Positions 22,342 through 46,600 of a stretch of DNA of 64,000 bases are shown here, piece by piece. How positions within the stretch are numbered: the stretch's first letter is position 1; each line of letters starts with the position of its first letter. The DNA lies in assembly GCF_032362555.1 (NCBI RefSeq), contig NC_083534.1, positions 3,395,001 through 3,459,000 of the forward strand. The letters run 5' to 3'. The notes beneath the pieces were generated by a model that did not search any database, was not told the DNA's origin, and saw only the letters and a program-made list of their open reading frames with translations. Source of the DNA: Amyelois transitella. Taxonomy: Eukaryota > Arthropoda > Insecta > Lepidoptera > Pyralidae. A program made the translations under genes and the position numbers.

Positions 22342-22413
22342 GACAGCTTACAAAGTTGAAGTGCGTCGTATCGCAGTGTTTCGTTGGAACAAAGAGAAGG
22401 CACGTTCAATCGT

Positions 22414-22746
22414 ATGTCCATCCAGAATCTCAACACATTCGATCCATTCGCCGATGCTATTAAAAGCTCGGAGGACGACGTACAAGATGGTTTAGTCCAC
22501 GTCCGAATCCAGCAGCGGAGCGGGCGCAAGACGCTGACTACGGTGCAGGGTCTGTCATCCGAGTATGACCTGAAGAAGATAGTGCGGGCATGCAAGAAGG
22601 AGTTTGCGTGCAACGGGACCGTTGTGGAGCACCCGGAGTACGGCGAAGTGTTACAACTGCAGGGCGATCAACGAGAGAACATTTGCCAGTGGCTGACGAA
22701 GTCTGGTCTGGTTAAGCCCGACCAACTGAAGGTGCACGGCTTTTAA
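22414..22746 (+). CDS. eIF1: Translation initiation factor eIF1 (SUI1)
   Basis: Encodes 110 residues from ATG at 22414 (MSIQNLNTFDPFADAIK). The frame stays open upstream without an ATG, so this start is preferred and matches the family's N-terminus. The protein binds the 40S subunit near the P site and helps choose the start codon. The SUI1 domain covers about residues 25-105, with VRIQQRSGRKTLTTVQGL, the ACKKEFACNGTV loop and the GDQRENICQWL helix. It is intronless in the coding part. Length is normal. Confidence 0.97.
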   Translation: MSIQNLNTFDPFADAIKSSEDDVQDGLVHVRIQQRSGRKTLTTVQGLSSEYDLKKIVRACKKEFACNGTVVEHPEYGEVLQLQGDQRENICQWLTKSGLVKPDQLKVHGF

Positions 22747-37636: not shown

Positions 37637-40600
37637 ATATTTAAGTTTTTTTTTTATGTCATATTTAGTTGTAGTTAAATTATTTTTTTGTTGTTATTTT
37701 ATTGTAGCATTCACTGTTTTTATTATTATTTATGCATAATTATACGATAGTTGACGAAGTATATGTCATAAGTTCCTTCTCTTTCTAACTCCAAGGTTAA
37801 CCAATAAGTTAGAAAGAGTAAGAAGGCATATATCTTATCAACGTTCGTAAATATACCGCCGGTTCAATTTGGTAAAAAAAAAAAAAGAAAATAATTGATT
37901 TTATGATATTGATCGTAACGAGACATGTCTGTAGGAAATAATTTATATTCTTTAAAAACAGTGAATGTTTTATTTTTATTTTTTATTGTGTTGTTTTGTT
38001 TTGCAATGTCCGCGACGAATGACGACATTCCTCTCAATTCCCCATATTACATACAAAGTCACGCCTTTTCCCCGGAGTGCTAGGCAGAGACTACATCTTT
38101 CCACTTGCCACGATCTCGGCATACTTAATTCGCAAGCTCGGCGATTTCGGGTACTCTTGACCTGACCCACTATCATCATCACTCCTTTGCCACTATCTTA
38201 ACAAACTCCACCACGTGTTAAAACTCTCCTCCCTCCCAAAATTAAGACCCCCACCAGACACAGACAGACGGACACTCTACACGTGTGACGTGTTAACACC
38301 CTCCACAACTATCTTAACAAACTCCACCACGTGTTAAAACTCTCCTCCCTCCCAAAATTAAGACCCCCACAAGACACAGACAGACGGACACTCTACACGT
38401 GTGACGTGTTAACACCCTCCACAACTATCTTAACAAACTCCACCACGTGTTAAAACTCTCCTCCCTCCCAAAATTAAGACCCCCACAAGACACAGACAGA
38501 CGGACACTCTACACGTGTGACGTGTTAACACCCTCCACAACTATCTTAACAAACTCCACCACGTGTTAAAACTCTCCTCCCTCCCAAAATTAAGACCCCC
38601 ACAAGACACAGACAGACGGACACTCTACACGTGTGACGTGTTAACACCCTCCACAACTATCTTAACAAACTCCACCACGTGTTAAAACTCTCCTCCCTCC
38701 CAAAATTAAGACCCCCACAAGACACAGACAGACGGACACTCTACACGTGTGACGTGTTAACACCCTCCACAACTATCTTAACAAACTCCACCACGTGTTA
38801 AAACTCTCCTCCCTCCCAAAATTAAGACCCCCACAAGACACAGACAGACAGACACGCTACACGTGTGACGTGTTAACACACTCGTCCACTACCTTAACAT
38901 ACTCCACCACTATCTTAACAAACTCCACCACGTGTTAAGTCACTCCTCCCTCCCAACGTTAAGACCCCCACAAGACACAGACAGACGGACACGCTACACG
39001 TGTGACGTGTTAACACACTCGTCCACTACCTTAACATACTCCACCACTATCTTAACAAACTCCACCACGTGTTAAGTCACTCCTCCCTCCCAACGTTAAG
39101 ACCCCCACAAGACACAGACAGACGGACACGCTACACGTGTGACGTGTTAACACACTCGTCCACTACCTTAACATACTCCACCACTATCTTAACAAACTCC
39201 ACCTTGGTTAAGTCACTCCTCCCTCCCAACGTTAAGACCCCCACAAGACACAGACAGACGGACACGCTACACGTGTGACGTGTTAACACACTCGTCCACT
39301 ACCTTAACATACTCCACCACTATCTTAACAAACTCCACCACGTGTTAAGTCACTCCTCCCTCCCAACGTTAAGACCCCCACAAGACACAGACAGACGGAC
39401 ACGCTACACGTGTGACGTGTTAACACACTCGTCCACTACCTTAACATACTCCACCACTATCTTAACAAACTCCACCTTGGTTAAGTCACTCCTCCCTCCC
39501 AACGTTAAGACCCCCACAAGACACAGACAGACGGACACGCTACACGTGTGACGTGTTAACACACTCGTACACTACCTTAACATACTCCACCACTATCTTA
39601 ACAAACTCCACCACGTGTTAAGTCACTCCTCCCTCCCAACGTTAAGACCCCCACAAGACACAGACAGACGGACACGCTACACGTGTGACGTGTTAAAACA
39701 CTCGGCCACAACCACTTAACATAATTTGTCACTATCTTAACAAACTCCACCACGTGTTAAAACTCTCCTCCCTCCCAAAGTTAAGACCCCCACAAGACAC
39801 AGACAGACAGACACGCTACACGTATGACGTGTTAATACCCTCGTCCACAACTTAACATACTTTGTCACTATCTTAACACACTCCACCACGTGTTAAGAAC
39901 TCCACAACTATCTTAACAAACTCCACCACGTGTTAAAACTCTCCTCCCTCCCAAAATTAAGACCCCCACAAGACACAGACAGACGGACACTCTACACGTG
40001 TGACGTGTTAACTAAGCGTGCGGGTGTGTGCGCTCTGATAGAGCACCCGTACGCAGAGGACGGCGCCGCCACCGGCTACGAGATGCGGCAACTGCAGCAG
40101 CAGAACGTGCGGCTGAGAGACACCCTGGTCCGCCTGAGGGATCTGTCCGCTCACGATAAGCACGCGATAATGAAGATGAACAAGGTAAGTTTGATGGTGG
40201 AATAGTTGGTGGAGAATTTTTAATAGGTACTGGCAATGTAAGAAAATTTTTTTTTTTTTTTTACGGTCAGTATTTGAGAATCTTAGTGAAATACTCGTAG
40301 TAAAATTTAATTATTAATTTTAATATAGCTTTGTATTTTTGTGTATACCAGTAGGTATTTTTTTTTGGAGCATTTTAGTAGTCAAGACACAAAAATTCAA
40401 ACAATTGAAATTTTAATTTTCGTATTGAATACTGGAAGGTTTGAACTGGAAGGTTGTTGTTACTGGCCAGAATTACTCTAATCAATTTATTTTTGTCAGA
40501 CATAAGTAACAAATTGTTGGTAGGTAAATTAAAATAAAATATTAGCTCGCTGTGCTGCGCCGTTAGGCATAAAAATCATTAAATACTTATTTATTATCAG

Positions 40601-43600
40601 AATTTCTAACAAATTTTGAATAAATAACGAACAAAGGTTGTGAAAAAAACTGTTTTAAACGGAACTCATAATAATTCTTACCAGGATCTGGAGCAATATA
40701 AATCAGAAATAGCCGAGCTGAGTCGCACTAAAGAGAAGCTCTCCAGCCGAGTGGAAGAGCTTGAAGCCCAGGTGGCTGACCTCAGGGAACAGGTGGACGC
40801 GGCCCTTGGTGCTGAGGAGATGGTGGAGCAGTTGGCTGAGAAGAAGATGGCGTTAGAGGACCAGGTGAGAGGGATATAGGTCTACTAGGAGAGAATCTAT
40901 TGCAGAAGATGGTAGTGAAGGTAACTGACCTCAGGGAACAGGTGGAAGCCGCTCTCGGTGCTGAAGAGATGGTGGAGCAGCTGGCTGAGAAGAAGATGGC
41001 GTTAGAGGACCAGGTGAGAGGGAGATAGGTCTTCTAGGAGAGAATCTATTGCAGAAGATGGTAGTGAACGTAACTGACCTCAGGGAACAGGTGGACGCGG
41101 CCCTCGGCGCTGAGGAGATGGTGGAGCAGCTGGCTGAGAAGAAGATGGCGCTAGAGGACCAGGTGAGAGGGAGATAGGTCTATTAGGAGCCAAGCTATTG
41201 GAGTAAATAACGGTCTTCTATAAGGGAAGCTATTCAAGAGGGCGGTGAAGGTAACTGACCTCAGAGTTCACTTGGACTTGGCCCTCGGCGCTGAGGAGAT
41301 GGTGGAGCAGCTGGCTGAGAAGAAGATGGTGTTAGAGGACCAGGTGAGAGGGATATAGGTCTACTAGGAGATAATCTTTTGAAGGAGATTTAAGTGAAGG
41401 TAACTGACCTCAGAGAACAGGTGGACGCGGCCCTCGGCGCTGAGGAGATGGTGGAGCAGCTGGCTGAGAAGAAGATGGCGTTAGAGGACCAGGTGAGAGG
41501 GAGATAGGTCTTCTAGGAGAGAATCTATTGCAGAAGATGGTATTGAAGGTGGCTGACCTCAGAGAACAGGTGGACGCGGCCCTCGGCGCTGAGGAGATGG
41601 ATGAGCAGCTGGCTGAGAAGAAGATGGCGCTAGAGGACCAGGTGAGAGGGAGATAGGTCTACTAGGAGAGAATCTATTGCAGAAGATGGTAGTGAAGGTA
41701 ACTGACTTTAGAGAACAGGTGGAAGCGGCCCTCGGCGCTGAGGAGATGGTGGAGCAGCTGGCTGAGAAGAAGATGGCGTTAGAGGACCAGGTGAGAGGGA
41801 GATAGGTCTACTAGGAGAGAATCTATTGCAGAAGATGGTATTGAAGGTAACTGGCCTCAGGCAATAGGTGGAAGCGGCCCTCGGCGCTGAGGAGATGGTG
41901 GAGCAGCTGGCTGAGAAGAAGATGACGCTGGAGGACCAGGTGAGAGGGATATAGGTCTACTTGGAGAGAATCTATTGCAGAAGATGGTAGTGAAGGTAAC
42001 TGACCTCAGAGAACAGGTGGACGCGGCCCTCGGCGCTGAGGAGATGGTGGAGCAGCTGGCTGAGAAGAAGATGGCGCTGGAGGACCAGGTGAGAGGGAGA
42101 TAGGTCTATTAGGAGCCTCGCTATTGGAGTAAATAACGGTCTTCTATAAGGGAAGCTATTCAAGATGGCGTTGAAGGTTACTGACCTCAGAGAACAGGTG
42201 GAAGCGGCCCTCGGTGCTGAGGAGATGGTGGAGCAGCTGGCTGAGAAGAAGATGGCGTTAGAGGACCAGGTGAGAGGGAGATAGGTCTTCTAGGAGAGAA
42301 TCTGTTGAAGAAGATTTAAGTGAAGGTTACTAACCTCGAAGAAAAATACCAAGTGGTTCAGACTGTGCGCTGATTTGTCAGTCAGTCATTCACTTTCTTC
42401 TTTTATATGCTGCAGTGTAGTTTGTTCCGCCGCTTCATCTACACATGCGATTTGGAAGCGGTAGTTGTTATAATTAGATTTGACAGATGTGACGTCAATA
42501 AGTGATACCTTGTATCCAATTTTGGAAATAAATCTATTCTATTCTATATATATTTAGATTAGCAACCCGACTCGTCTTCGCTCGCATTAATGATAAATTT
42601 CAAACAAACATTCACCCCCCATTTTTTTTATTATAGGGGATGAATTGTTAAAAAAATTGTTTTGTTTGTTATAACGCGGGTTTTACCTATATGCATTCCA
42701 AATTTAATTCTAATCGGTCCAGCGGTTTAGCCGTGAAAGTGGAACAGACAGACACACGAAATTAGTAACTGTTTGACCAAGCGCTCGACCAAATTTATAT
42801 GTATTCAATTAAATCAACCTTGAAAATTGATCAGGTTTATCAATATAAAAACAACAAATAACGGTTTAGTTGACATCTCGCCTTTTCACGTATTTCGGCA
42901 TTATCTTAAGTCGGGTGGTGCTGGTGGGGCTTAGAGAGTGAAACGAATAACTTCCTGATAGATTTATTGCCAATAGAATAATTTACAATACATATGTATA
43001 TGCGCGTAACCGATAAAGTTCACGAGACGATTAGAAAAGGAGGGGATTCGTTCGCCATTCGCTCTACATAAAAATGCAATTCAGCAAGTTTGCATTACGT
43101 CGCATTATTATCACGTCTCTTAACTTGGCTCTAACTAGACAACATCACCTACTCTGCCCTGGTATAACTAAAATGCCGTTATAAATAAAATAAATTAATA
43201 ATATTAAATAAATAAATAAAATCTGCCAAATCCTTGTTTTTAAGTAAAACGTCAAAAACTGCGGTAAAAATTCAAACTGATGCCATTCATCAATGAGAAC
43301 GCCTATTTATTACTTAAAGGTAGGTACCAAAAAGTCGTATATACAGATCGAAAGAGATTTTTTTTTCTTATTTTACTGGTAAAAAAAAAGGGTGTAAATC
43401 CTGATGTCAGATAACGGCATTTTAGTTATACCACGGCAGTACCTACTTGTCTCATGCTGTATTTCGTCACATCAGGTGGAACAGCTGAAGCAGGACGTGT
43501 CTGAGCTGGAGGCCCTGCAGGAGGTGCACGAGCAGCTGGTGGAGTCCAATAGGGAGCTGGAGATGGACCTGCGCGAGGAGTTGGAGATGGCGCACGCCGC

Positions 43601-46600
43601 CACCAGGGAGGTAGGTACCCGAAGGTTGCCCTGCAAATGTTGGTTGGTAACTGCAAATGTTGGTTGGTAACTGCAAATGTTGGTTTTTCTTTTTCTCTTC
43701 TTCTTTACTCCGTTGTGGCGTACTCATAATTCTTCCTTATATCCCTTACATATTAGCATGTATCCCTTACGGGGTAGACAGAGCCAACAGTTCACGAAAA
43801 AAGCCACGTTCAGCTGTACGGCTTAATGATGGAATTGAGATTCAAATAGTGACAGGTTGCTAGCCCATCGTTTAAAAGAAGAATCCCGGTCAGGGCATGA
43901 TGAGAAAAGAACTTGTTCTGAATGGTCTGGGTCTTGGATGTTTATCTATATAAGTATTTGTTATAAAATATAGTATCGTTGAGTTAGTATCTCGTAACAC
44001 AAGTGTCGAACTCACTTCGATGTTAACTCAATCAGTGTAATTTATCCCGTATGTATATATATATGTATATATTTATTTATTTATTTATCCAGGCTGTAAG
44101 AGAGAGGGAAGCCGCCATGGAGACCATTATGGACCGTGACACCACCATAGTGAAGTTCAGGGAGCTGGTGCAGAAGCTTGGGGAGCAGCTGCAGGAGCTG
44201 AAGAACCAGGTCGAGTCCAAACAAGGTGACTACATGCTTTTTTATGTACACTATCTACACTAATATTATAAAGAGGAAAACTTTGTTTGTTTGGTTGTAA
44301 TGAATAGGCTCAAAAACTACTGGACCGATTTTAAAAATACTTTCACCATTCGAAATCTACATTATCCACGAGTAACATAGACTATATTTTATTTTGGAAA
44401 AAATAGGGTTCCGTAATAATATATAAAAATAATTGGCAAAACAGCGTTTGCCGGGTCAGCTAGTTACATATATGTATGTATGTACATGTGTGCCGTGTGG
44501 TTCCCGGCACCATTACAAAAAAGAATAGGACCGCTCCATCTCTTTCTCACGGGTGTCGTAAAAGGCGACTAAGAGACGTTCGACGACGTTTAGGCCACGT
44601 TCAGCTTTTTGGCTTGACGATTGAATTGAGATTCAACATACATACATACATACATAAAATCACGCCTCTTTCCCGGAGGGGTAGGCAGAGACTACCTCTT
44701 TCCACTTGCCACGATCTCTGCATACTTCTTTCGCTTCGTCCACATTCATAACTCTCTTCATACAAGCTCGGCGGTTTCGGGTACTTTTGACCTGACCCTT
44801 TACCAGGACGTCCTTAATTTGATCAAGATACGTTCGTCTAGGTCTTCCCCCTCCGACCTTTCCCTCCACACTCTCCTTGTATATCTGCTTAGTCAACCTG
44901 CTTTCATTCATCCTCTCCACATGACCGAACCATCTTAACATACCCTTTTCTATTCCTGTAACTACATCTTCTTTCACATCACAACATTCCCTTATCACGC
45001 TGTTCCTTATCCTGTCACTCAATTTCACACCCATCATACTCCTTAACGCTCTCATTTCCACTGCATTTATTCTGCTTTCATGCTTCTTTTGCCATACCCA
45101 ACTTTCACTCCCATACATTAATGTCGGGACCAACACGCCCCTGTGCACAGCCAGTCGAGCCTTTTTGGATAGTTTCTGACTGCTCATAAAGGCATGCAAA
45201 GCTCCATTCACCATGTTCCCCGCGTTCACTCTCCTTTCAATATCACTATCATACTTGCCATCTGATGTAAACTTTGATCCTAGATATACAAACTCTTTCA
45301 CTTGCTCCACTTTTTCTCCTCCAATCAAAATATTACATGCTGTCATTTCTTTCTCCATTTCAAAAACCAGTGTTTTAGTTTTACTTACGTTCACTTTCAT
45401 TCCTTTCTCTTTTAAAGCTTCATGCATACAGTTTACCATCTCCTGTAACTCCTCCGCTGATGACGCCAGTATAACCTGATCGTCGGCATAGAGCAGACAT
45501 TTGACGAGTAACTCATTCATCCTTAATCCACTTTTAGACTCTTTCAAATCTGTCAAACAGCTATCCATAAATAGGTTGAACAGCCACGGTGACGCAACAC
45601 ATCCTTGCCTAACGCCTTTCTCAATCTTAAACCACTCAGTGTGCGCTCCGTTTATCCTGACACAAGCACTCGAATCCTCATATAAGGATTTCAGTGCATT
45701 GAGATTCAAACAGTGACAGGTTGCTAGATGGATCACCAATCCGTGAGGTTATATCTCTATGTCGCCTAAAACAATTCTTTTTTATTCAATATCGGTTTAG
45801 GCATTCGTCTAACATCTCACCTGATGAAGACGAAGATATCACCAAACTGTGAGGTTATATCTATATACATACATATACATACATACATACATATAATCAC
45901 GTCTATATCCCTTGCGAGGTAGACAGACCCAACAGTCTCAAAAAGACTGATAGGCTACGTTCAGCTATTTGGCTTTAAGATACAATTGAGATTTTAATAG
46001 TGACAGGTTGCTAGCCCATCGCCTAAAAGAAGAATCCCAAATTTATAAGCCTACCCCTCAGTCGCCTTTTACGACATCCATGGGAGCGAGACGGAGTGGT
46101 CCTATTCTTTTTCCATTGGTGCCGGGAACCACACGGCACTTGTATCTATATTTATAATACTATCTTCCATCACAGGTTCCCCAGCGCCAAGTACGGAGCA
46201 GGAATCGAATTCGGAACCCTCCACTCGTAATTCGCCTCCCGTGGAACTGGGCTCACTGGTCCACTTGTCCAAGGCTTCGACAAGGTCCATAGACCTTCAG
46301 CTGAGGGCTCTGGAGCTGAGTCAGGCAAGGGCGAGAGCTGATATGTTGGCCGCTTGCCTGCCTGACCATTTTATGTCGCCATCTGGTGAGGTTTTTTTGA
46401 TTTAATCATTTAATCATTTATTTGTTCCTTGAATATGTTCACAATACAGTTTCTGTTAACACACATTCTACCTTTGAAGGCGTCGGAATTATGTATATAT
46501 ACATGTATTTTAAATAAGCAGCGTAATAGGCTCTGTCTTATTATTACCATTTTGTCATTTTAATGTCAAATAATAATAAATTTGTCAAATTATAATATTA

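Follow-up and report, generated by a model that had tools for sequence, protein, structure and literature searches.

Minisatellite-like tandem repeats lying over exon-intron boundaries, termed mirages, have been described in amphioxus, in Adh3 and in the globin genes BflGb6 and BflGb9; the units measure 150–160 bp in one of these globin genes and 157 bp in the other (PMC3087553). According to the same report their length varies between haplotypes, RT-PCR suggests regular splicing to be unaffected, and new introns are proposed to arise from them (PMC3087553). The array presented here shares with the amphioxus mirages the boundary-spanning repeats, a similar unit size, splice signals in many units and diverged copies (81–100% in BflGb6); in BflGb9 it is also the 3′ exon boundary that is duplicated, as in the DCTN1 array (PMC3087553). 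It differs from them in that it lies in a dynactin gene of a presumed insect, has nine copies whose donors are all identical and is known from the DNA of one assembly.

Other systems are comparable in part. In potato RdRp a boundary duplication with a new intron has been detected (PMC4974935). There, as in DCTN1, duplication over one exon-intron boundary brings ready-made splice signals, and a latent site within exon sequence can become the missing splice site; however, the potato duplication copies the acceptor side and its intron was detected, whereas DCTN1 copies the donor side nine times and its intron is only a candidate. Internal tandem repeats of human segmental duplications likewise show a minisatellite expansion that alters gene structure, although their units average 30 bp in 4 copies (PMC2812944). 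Mutually exclusive exon arrays of the Dscam type also hold near-identical exon-like units within one intron (PMC6071210, PMC8042237), but the DCTN1 units come without a copied original acceptor, without inverted repeats of 14 bases or more and without unusual folding. Titles and abstract openings contained no report of a moth dynactin array; the term 'mirage' was outside this search, so no novelty is claimed for an insect mirage.

Results

The end of a DCTN1 exon and its donor are followed by nine tandem copies

The window, that is, the whole stretch of DNA analysed (64,000 nucleotides), contains ten exact GACCAG/GTGAGAGGG sites (the slash marks the splice point), ending at 40864, 41013, 41162, 41343, 41492, 41641, 41790, 41939, 42088 and 42269. 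Their spacings along the array are 149, 149, 181, 149, 149, 149, 149, 149 and 181 (149 bp in seven of nine, 181 bp in two). The dynactin exon end and its donor are present in nine further tandem copies in the following intron, as the original prediction had it, including the two units of 181 bp. Each copy comprises the last 93 bases of the exon and the first 56 bases of the intron (88 in both longer units). The array (40685–42343) and the next exon are laid out as follows:

40685..40864, plus strand, true DCTN1 exon of 60 codons (180 bases), coiled coil 1B; array unit 0 consists of its final 93 bases
40865..41013, plus strand, copy 1, 149 bp; 24-codon frame 40942–41013, 36-codon frame 40906–41013, donor after 41013
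41014..41162, plus strand, copy 2, 149 bp, open
41163..41343, plus strand, copy 3, 181 bp; 24-codon acceptor gone, private differences 7 amino-acid-changing and 0 silent
41344..41492, plus strand, copy 4, 149 bp; 36-codon frame with a stop, 24-codon frame open
41493..41641, plus strand, copy 5, 149 bp, open; GTGGCT common to this copy and the true exon
41642..41790, plus strand, copy 6, 149 bp, open
41791..41939, plus strand, copy 7, 149 bp; CAG changed to a TAG stop directly upstream of the 24-codon frame, and CTGGC in place of the branch-like CTGAC
41940..42088, plus strand, copy 8, 149 bp, open
42089..42269, plus strand, copy 9, 181 bp, open; best-scoring AG of the array at 42197, the 24-codon acceptor
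42270..42343, plus strand, partial tail copy, decayed, without donor; aligns locally with the copy 4 unit over 74 bases
43476..43610, plus strand, next DCTN1 exon, 45 codons; predicted to pair with donor 40864 in the canonical splice, its acceptor ranking at the 97.9th percentile among AGs

A 34-base unit pattern, allowed up to 3 mismatches, matched the window ten times, always in array units, and never in 100 shuffles. The 93-base exon part shows no apparent insertion or deletion in any copy, and copies differ from one another at 2–15 of these sites. The exon differs from the nine copies at a mean of 8.3 of 93 sites, while the copies' own means against all other units run from 4.7 to 10.9; by this measure the true exon end is no outlier among the units of the array. 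Neighbouring copies are barely closer than distant ones (6.9 vs 7.1 differences). Searching the genome (327 Mb, 33 contigs) with the unit gave at least 9 matches, all listed ones inside this array, and with the exon protein at least 12, all listed ones at this locus. Neither a second gene copy nor a spliced retrocopy is among the matches listed for the two queries, so no mRNA structure is revealed by way of a retrocopy. No relatives were found in viral_contigs (viral) or genome_contigs (bacterial and archaeal contigs).

The match to solved dynactin subunit 1 chains identifies the host gene as DCTN1 (dynactin p150Glued), in agreement with the original assignment. When the exon is joined to the next two exons (40864 to 43476), the match extends ungapped over 133 residues (chain residues 397–529), the junction mapping to residues 453/454; the conserved dynactin protein therefore requires no insert. 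From this colinearity, normal mRNA would splice 40864 to 43476, removing all nine copies as intron. Pfam places a Dynactin domain in two downstream ORFs, and its coiled-coil and other matches on the exon itself are all under the curated cut-offs. Coiled coil 1B (CC1B) has been modelled at residues 391–543, with the dynein-motor site at 480–521 and the DIC and LIS1 sites likewise on it (PMC7615804; numbering taken as equal to that of the matched chain). An insert at 453/454 would consequently fall within an interaction hub, ahead of the dynein-motor site. Splice variants described for vertebrate DCTN1 include some that affect exons 5, 6, 7 and 27, others with alternative starts and an intron-22 form (PMC3583065).

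A second tandem array, of 116-bp and then 137-bp units, occupies the preceding DCTN1 intron (38192–40012). Its last unit-like stretch reaches about 40012, some 30 bases upstream of the presumed acceptor 40041; within 40001–40190 the sole short match to it is at 40001–40012, upstream of the exon, which is presumed to occupy 40042–40184. Having its own array, this intron suggests that tandem amplification on such a scale is a local habit.

Splice signals and candidate frames in the copies

All ten donors are identical and stand at the 99.6th percentile of the GTs in the window; the donor is present in 10 of 10 units, the units having been located by that same donor. Donor conservation beyond chance was not found, as the longest invariant run covers 19 of 119 columns, a length reached in 568 of 10,000 column shuffles. 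A phase-0 AG followed by an open frame of 35–36 codons exists in seven of the nine copies, namely 36 codons after CAG in copies 1, 2, 5, 6 and 8 and 35 codons after AAG in copies 3 and 9; a stop interrupts it in copies 4 and 7. The acceptors of this set, TTGCAG/AAG or TTCAAG/ATG (AGG in copy 3), are at

40905, 41054, 41533, 41682, 41980, 41238, 42164

The seven open and two interrupted frames are those originally predicted, and the suspicion voiced with them, that many copies may be decoys, is in our judgement probably right. The spacer of 41 bases described at that time is the donor-to-AG stretch of seven copies only, since in the two 181-bp copies it measures 76. Because 40–50-nt introns do splice in Drosophila, although their acceptors are weaker and the reaction is slower (PMC5762160), 41 nt is short yet possible. 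The idea of a 35–36-codon cassette keeps its open frames but is weakened by low acceptor scores and loss of the heptad register. Other in-phase frames, of 24 and 31 codons, start from other AGs.

The 24-codon frame was absent from the original prediction, as was the amphioxus precedent. Its acceptor, GAACAG/GTGGA, lies inside the copied part of the exon. AG, open frame and donor are kept in eight of nine copies, copy 3 being the sole one without this AG, and the stops of copies 4 and 7 are both upstream of the frame, so they would be intronic in a 24-codon reading. Candidate introns measure 77 nt (109 nt before copy 9), the duplicated segment supplying both the donor CAG/GTGAGA and the acceptor at their ends. 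A branch-like CTGAC motif, counted by eye, precedes the acceptor in seven of the eight copies, with its A at −14. The 24-codon acceptors are at

40941, 41090, 41420, 41569, 41718, 41867, 42016, 42197

Scored with general metazoan frequencies untrained on this genome, the AGs of the 36-codon frame (CAG) rank at the 62nd–75th percentile, those of the 35-codon frame at 21.6 and those of the 24-codon frame at the 72nd–90th; six presumed real acceptors of this gene, picked by eye from reading frames, rank at 60, 80.8, 91.6, 97.9, 98.3 and 99.8. Weak acceptors were considered as proof against splicing and found not decisive, the presumed real acceptor 40041 being itself at the 60th percentile. By a crude hydrophobic a/d count with weights of our choice, the leading V of V-T-D-L stays at heptad position a with an insert of 24 or 31 residues and moves to e with 35 codons or f with 36.

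No inverted repeat pair of 14 bases or more was found at 40600–42500, and three stretches folded no better than their shuffles (z 0.53 to 1.69). These two results show no sign of the competing RNA pairings described for mutually exclusive arrays of the Dscam type. Downstream of the array, AGs 42415 and 42636 (99.5th and 99.7th percentile) score above the true acceptor 43475 (97.9th); the copy donors might pair with them cryptically.

Codon-level constraint is found in shared and exon alleles

Among copies 1–9 pN/pS is 0.29 (codon bootstrap 0.12–0.72), and 0.24 (0.12–0.57) with the exon added; by group it is 0.13 among copies 1, 2, 5, 6 and 8 and 0.58 among copies 3, 4, 7 and 9. Where does this constraint reside? 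Changes private to one copy number 13 amino-acid-changing and 6 silent (N13:S6, P 0.19–0.41 for so few N under neutrality), whereas alleles found in at least two units or private to the exon number N2:S7 (P 0.0004–0.002), a contrast with a Fisher P of 0.042, or 0.08 once clustered changes are merged. Codon-level constraint thus looks to sit in the shared and exon alleles, copy-private changes being neutral in total and uneven by copy. The dN/dS comparison put forward in the original prediction accordingly gives a divided answer, the overall ratio speaking for constraint and the private changes against it. As to the unevenness, the private changes of copies 3 and 7 are 11 N, including one stop, with 0 S, against 2 N and 6 S for the remaining seven copies (P for heterogeneity 0.002, 0.046 or 0.014, according to the way in which clustered changes are merged); on these small numbers, some copies could be constrained exons. 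Alleles absent from the exon include 1 stop among 22, and a neutral stop fraction of 0.041–0.050 predicts about 1.

Direct selection on all copies was considered and rejected. Counting the alleles present in the exon gives N15:S13 (P 0.002–0.022), leaving them out N14:S8 (P 0.07–0.22), and the neutral-looking private changes weaken this proposal further. Outside copies 3 and 7 the alleles number N4:S13 in the true frame and N12:S5 and N16:S1 in the other two; the strong constraint seen in the true frame after this removal (P 0.00003 or less) is not used as proof, because the split was made after the changes of copies 3 and 7 were known.

When the exon is counted in, all four combinations occur at 21 of the 36 informative site pairs, which fits exchange or repeated mutation. 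Sequence appears to pass between the copies and the true exon end, copy 5 sharing the GTGGCT pair with the exon, so the constraint on shared alleles may date from a time when the unit concerned occupied the translated position. Concerted evolution within the cluster but not at its edges would agree with these incompatible pairs and with the decayed tail; yet the first unit is not excluded and neighbours are hardly more alike. Diversity at 4-fold sites (pi 0.184, 0.077–0.299) is about twice that of the spacer (0.084, 0.040–0.132), with overlapping intervals. At 40772–42325, differences among eight of the ten units comprise 17 transitions and 11 transversions in the exon part and 2 and 11 in the spacer.

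Discussion

We think it probable that the array is a minisatellite across an exon-intron boundary, a mirage, largely neutral and spliced out in DCTN1; an ordinary process with an unusual product is most likely what the letters record. Like a mirage, it has tandem units that span the boundary and AG/GT signals in many, though not all, copies. A short similarity between GTGGCTGACCTC in the exon and the intron about 56 bases beyond the donor (GTTACTAACCTC in the tail copy) would let 93 exon and 56 intron bases duplicate, and unequal exchange could then amplify the unit. The splice from 40864 to 43476 expected from colinearity would drop all nine copies from normal mRNA. The true exon end would remain a recombining member of the array, so that copies trade sequence with the exon; judging by the allele pattern, selection on dynactin would filter whatever alleles reach the first, translated position, and changes born inside the array would be largely free. 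A real exon end that behaves as a recombining satellite member would make untranslated copies look, misleadingly, as if they were under selection at the protein level. As the copy donors match the real one in strength, occasional cryptic splicing is to be expected.

What if some copies are exons? Splicing from a donor to GAACAG/GTGGA in the next copy would add 24 residues to coiled coil 1B each time with the heptad register kept, and optional exons of this kind seem to us unlikely, though much in the array is compatible with them. Eight of nine copies retain the AG, open frame and donor, both stops are upstream, the acceptors include the best AG of the array, and V remains at heptad a; in-register length, however, has about a 1-in-7 chance, and CAG is common here (3 of 31 codons), which makes an in-phase acceptor cheap by chance. 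An intron of 77 nt lies inside the 40–80-nt range that includes more than half of fly introns, but the branch A at −14, found in seven of eight copies, is close for that length, the fly mean being −14 in 40–50-nt introns and −23 to −26 in the longer classes (PMC5762160). The acceptors have no pyrimidine tract, and an identical motif inside the true exon (40792) is presumably unused. Over the eight copies the frame counts N3:S7 (P 0.001–0.005; without exon alleles N3:S6, P 0.003–0.014), vs N5:S4 in the 7 codons before it; this partition was chosen post hoc, and all nine copies give N7:S7 (P 0.013–0.055). The insert would also come at 453/454, inside CC1B and ahead of the dynein-motor site. That up to eight such cassettes are used serially, copy-number variants then giving dynactin arms of differing length with register intact, we regard as quite unlikely. 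A cassette of 35–36 codons per copy is very improbable: its seven frames are open and in phase, flies splice 40–50-nt introns, more slowly (PMC5762160), human 43-nt introns are spliced and acceptor 40041 scores equally low, but joining neighbours needs a 41-nt intron in five of seven cases, two of the acceptors fall to 21.6, the heptad register is lost and copies 4 and 7 have stops.

The donors offer a further explanation. If a downstream copy donor were sometimes used, retained intron and an early stop would follow, and dynactin output would be lowered or tuned; read-through beyond 40864 indeed hits a TAG at the fifth codon, and ten identical donors of such high rank are available to compete. 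We nevertheless find this decidedly unlikely, since only the first donor yields a short exon with an open frame, the nearest donor is usually at an advantage in splicing and the invariant run at the donor is not beyond chance. An assembly artefact, or a collapsed or expanded repeat, is a natural concern because the copy number of tandem arrays is error-prone, and one published mirage looked aberrantly assembled in a genome draft (PMC3087553); it is highly unlikely here, as the copies differ mutually, two carry a 32-base-longer spacer and the 327-Mb assembly comes in 33 contigs.

Exon-boundary minisatellites of amphioxus have been proposed as material from which new introns and exons may arise, and for this proposal the DCTN1 mirage, as we read it, would be a clear test case, in which all junctions and protein outcomes can be listed in advance. 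The clarity comes from its nine copies, a structurally understood gene and no second copy among the genome matches listed. Coiled coil 1B being an interaction hub, length changes should matter.

Some neighbouring observations deserve mention. Past the array, a 30-base piece at 42407–42436 has several further occurrences across the window and so looks like part of a dispersed repeat. A 362-codon open frame on the minus strand (44660–45748), inside a DCTN1 intron, has a YADD motif and resembles a portion of a non-LTR reverse transcriptase. An open frame at 22360–22743 has a SUI1 domain (translation initiation factor), and a tandem array with a 61-bp unit (6.1 copies, 99% matches) begins at the window edge and occupies positions 1–375.
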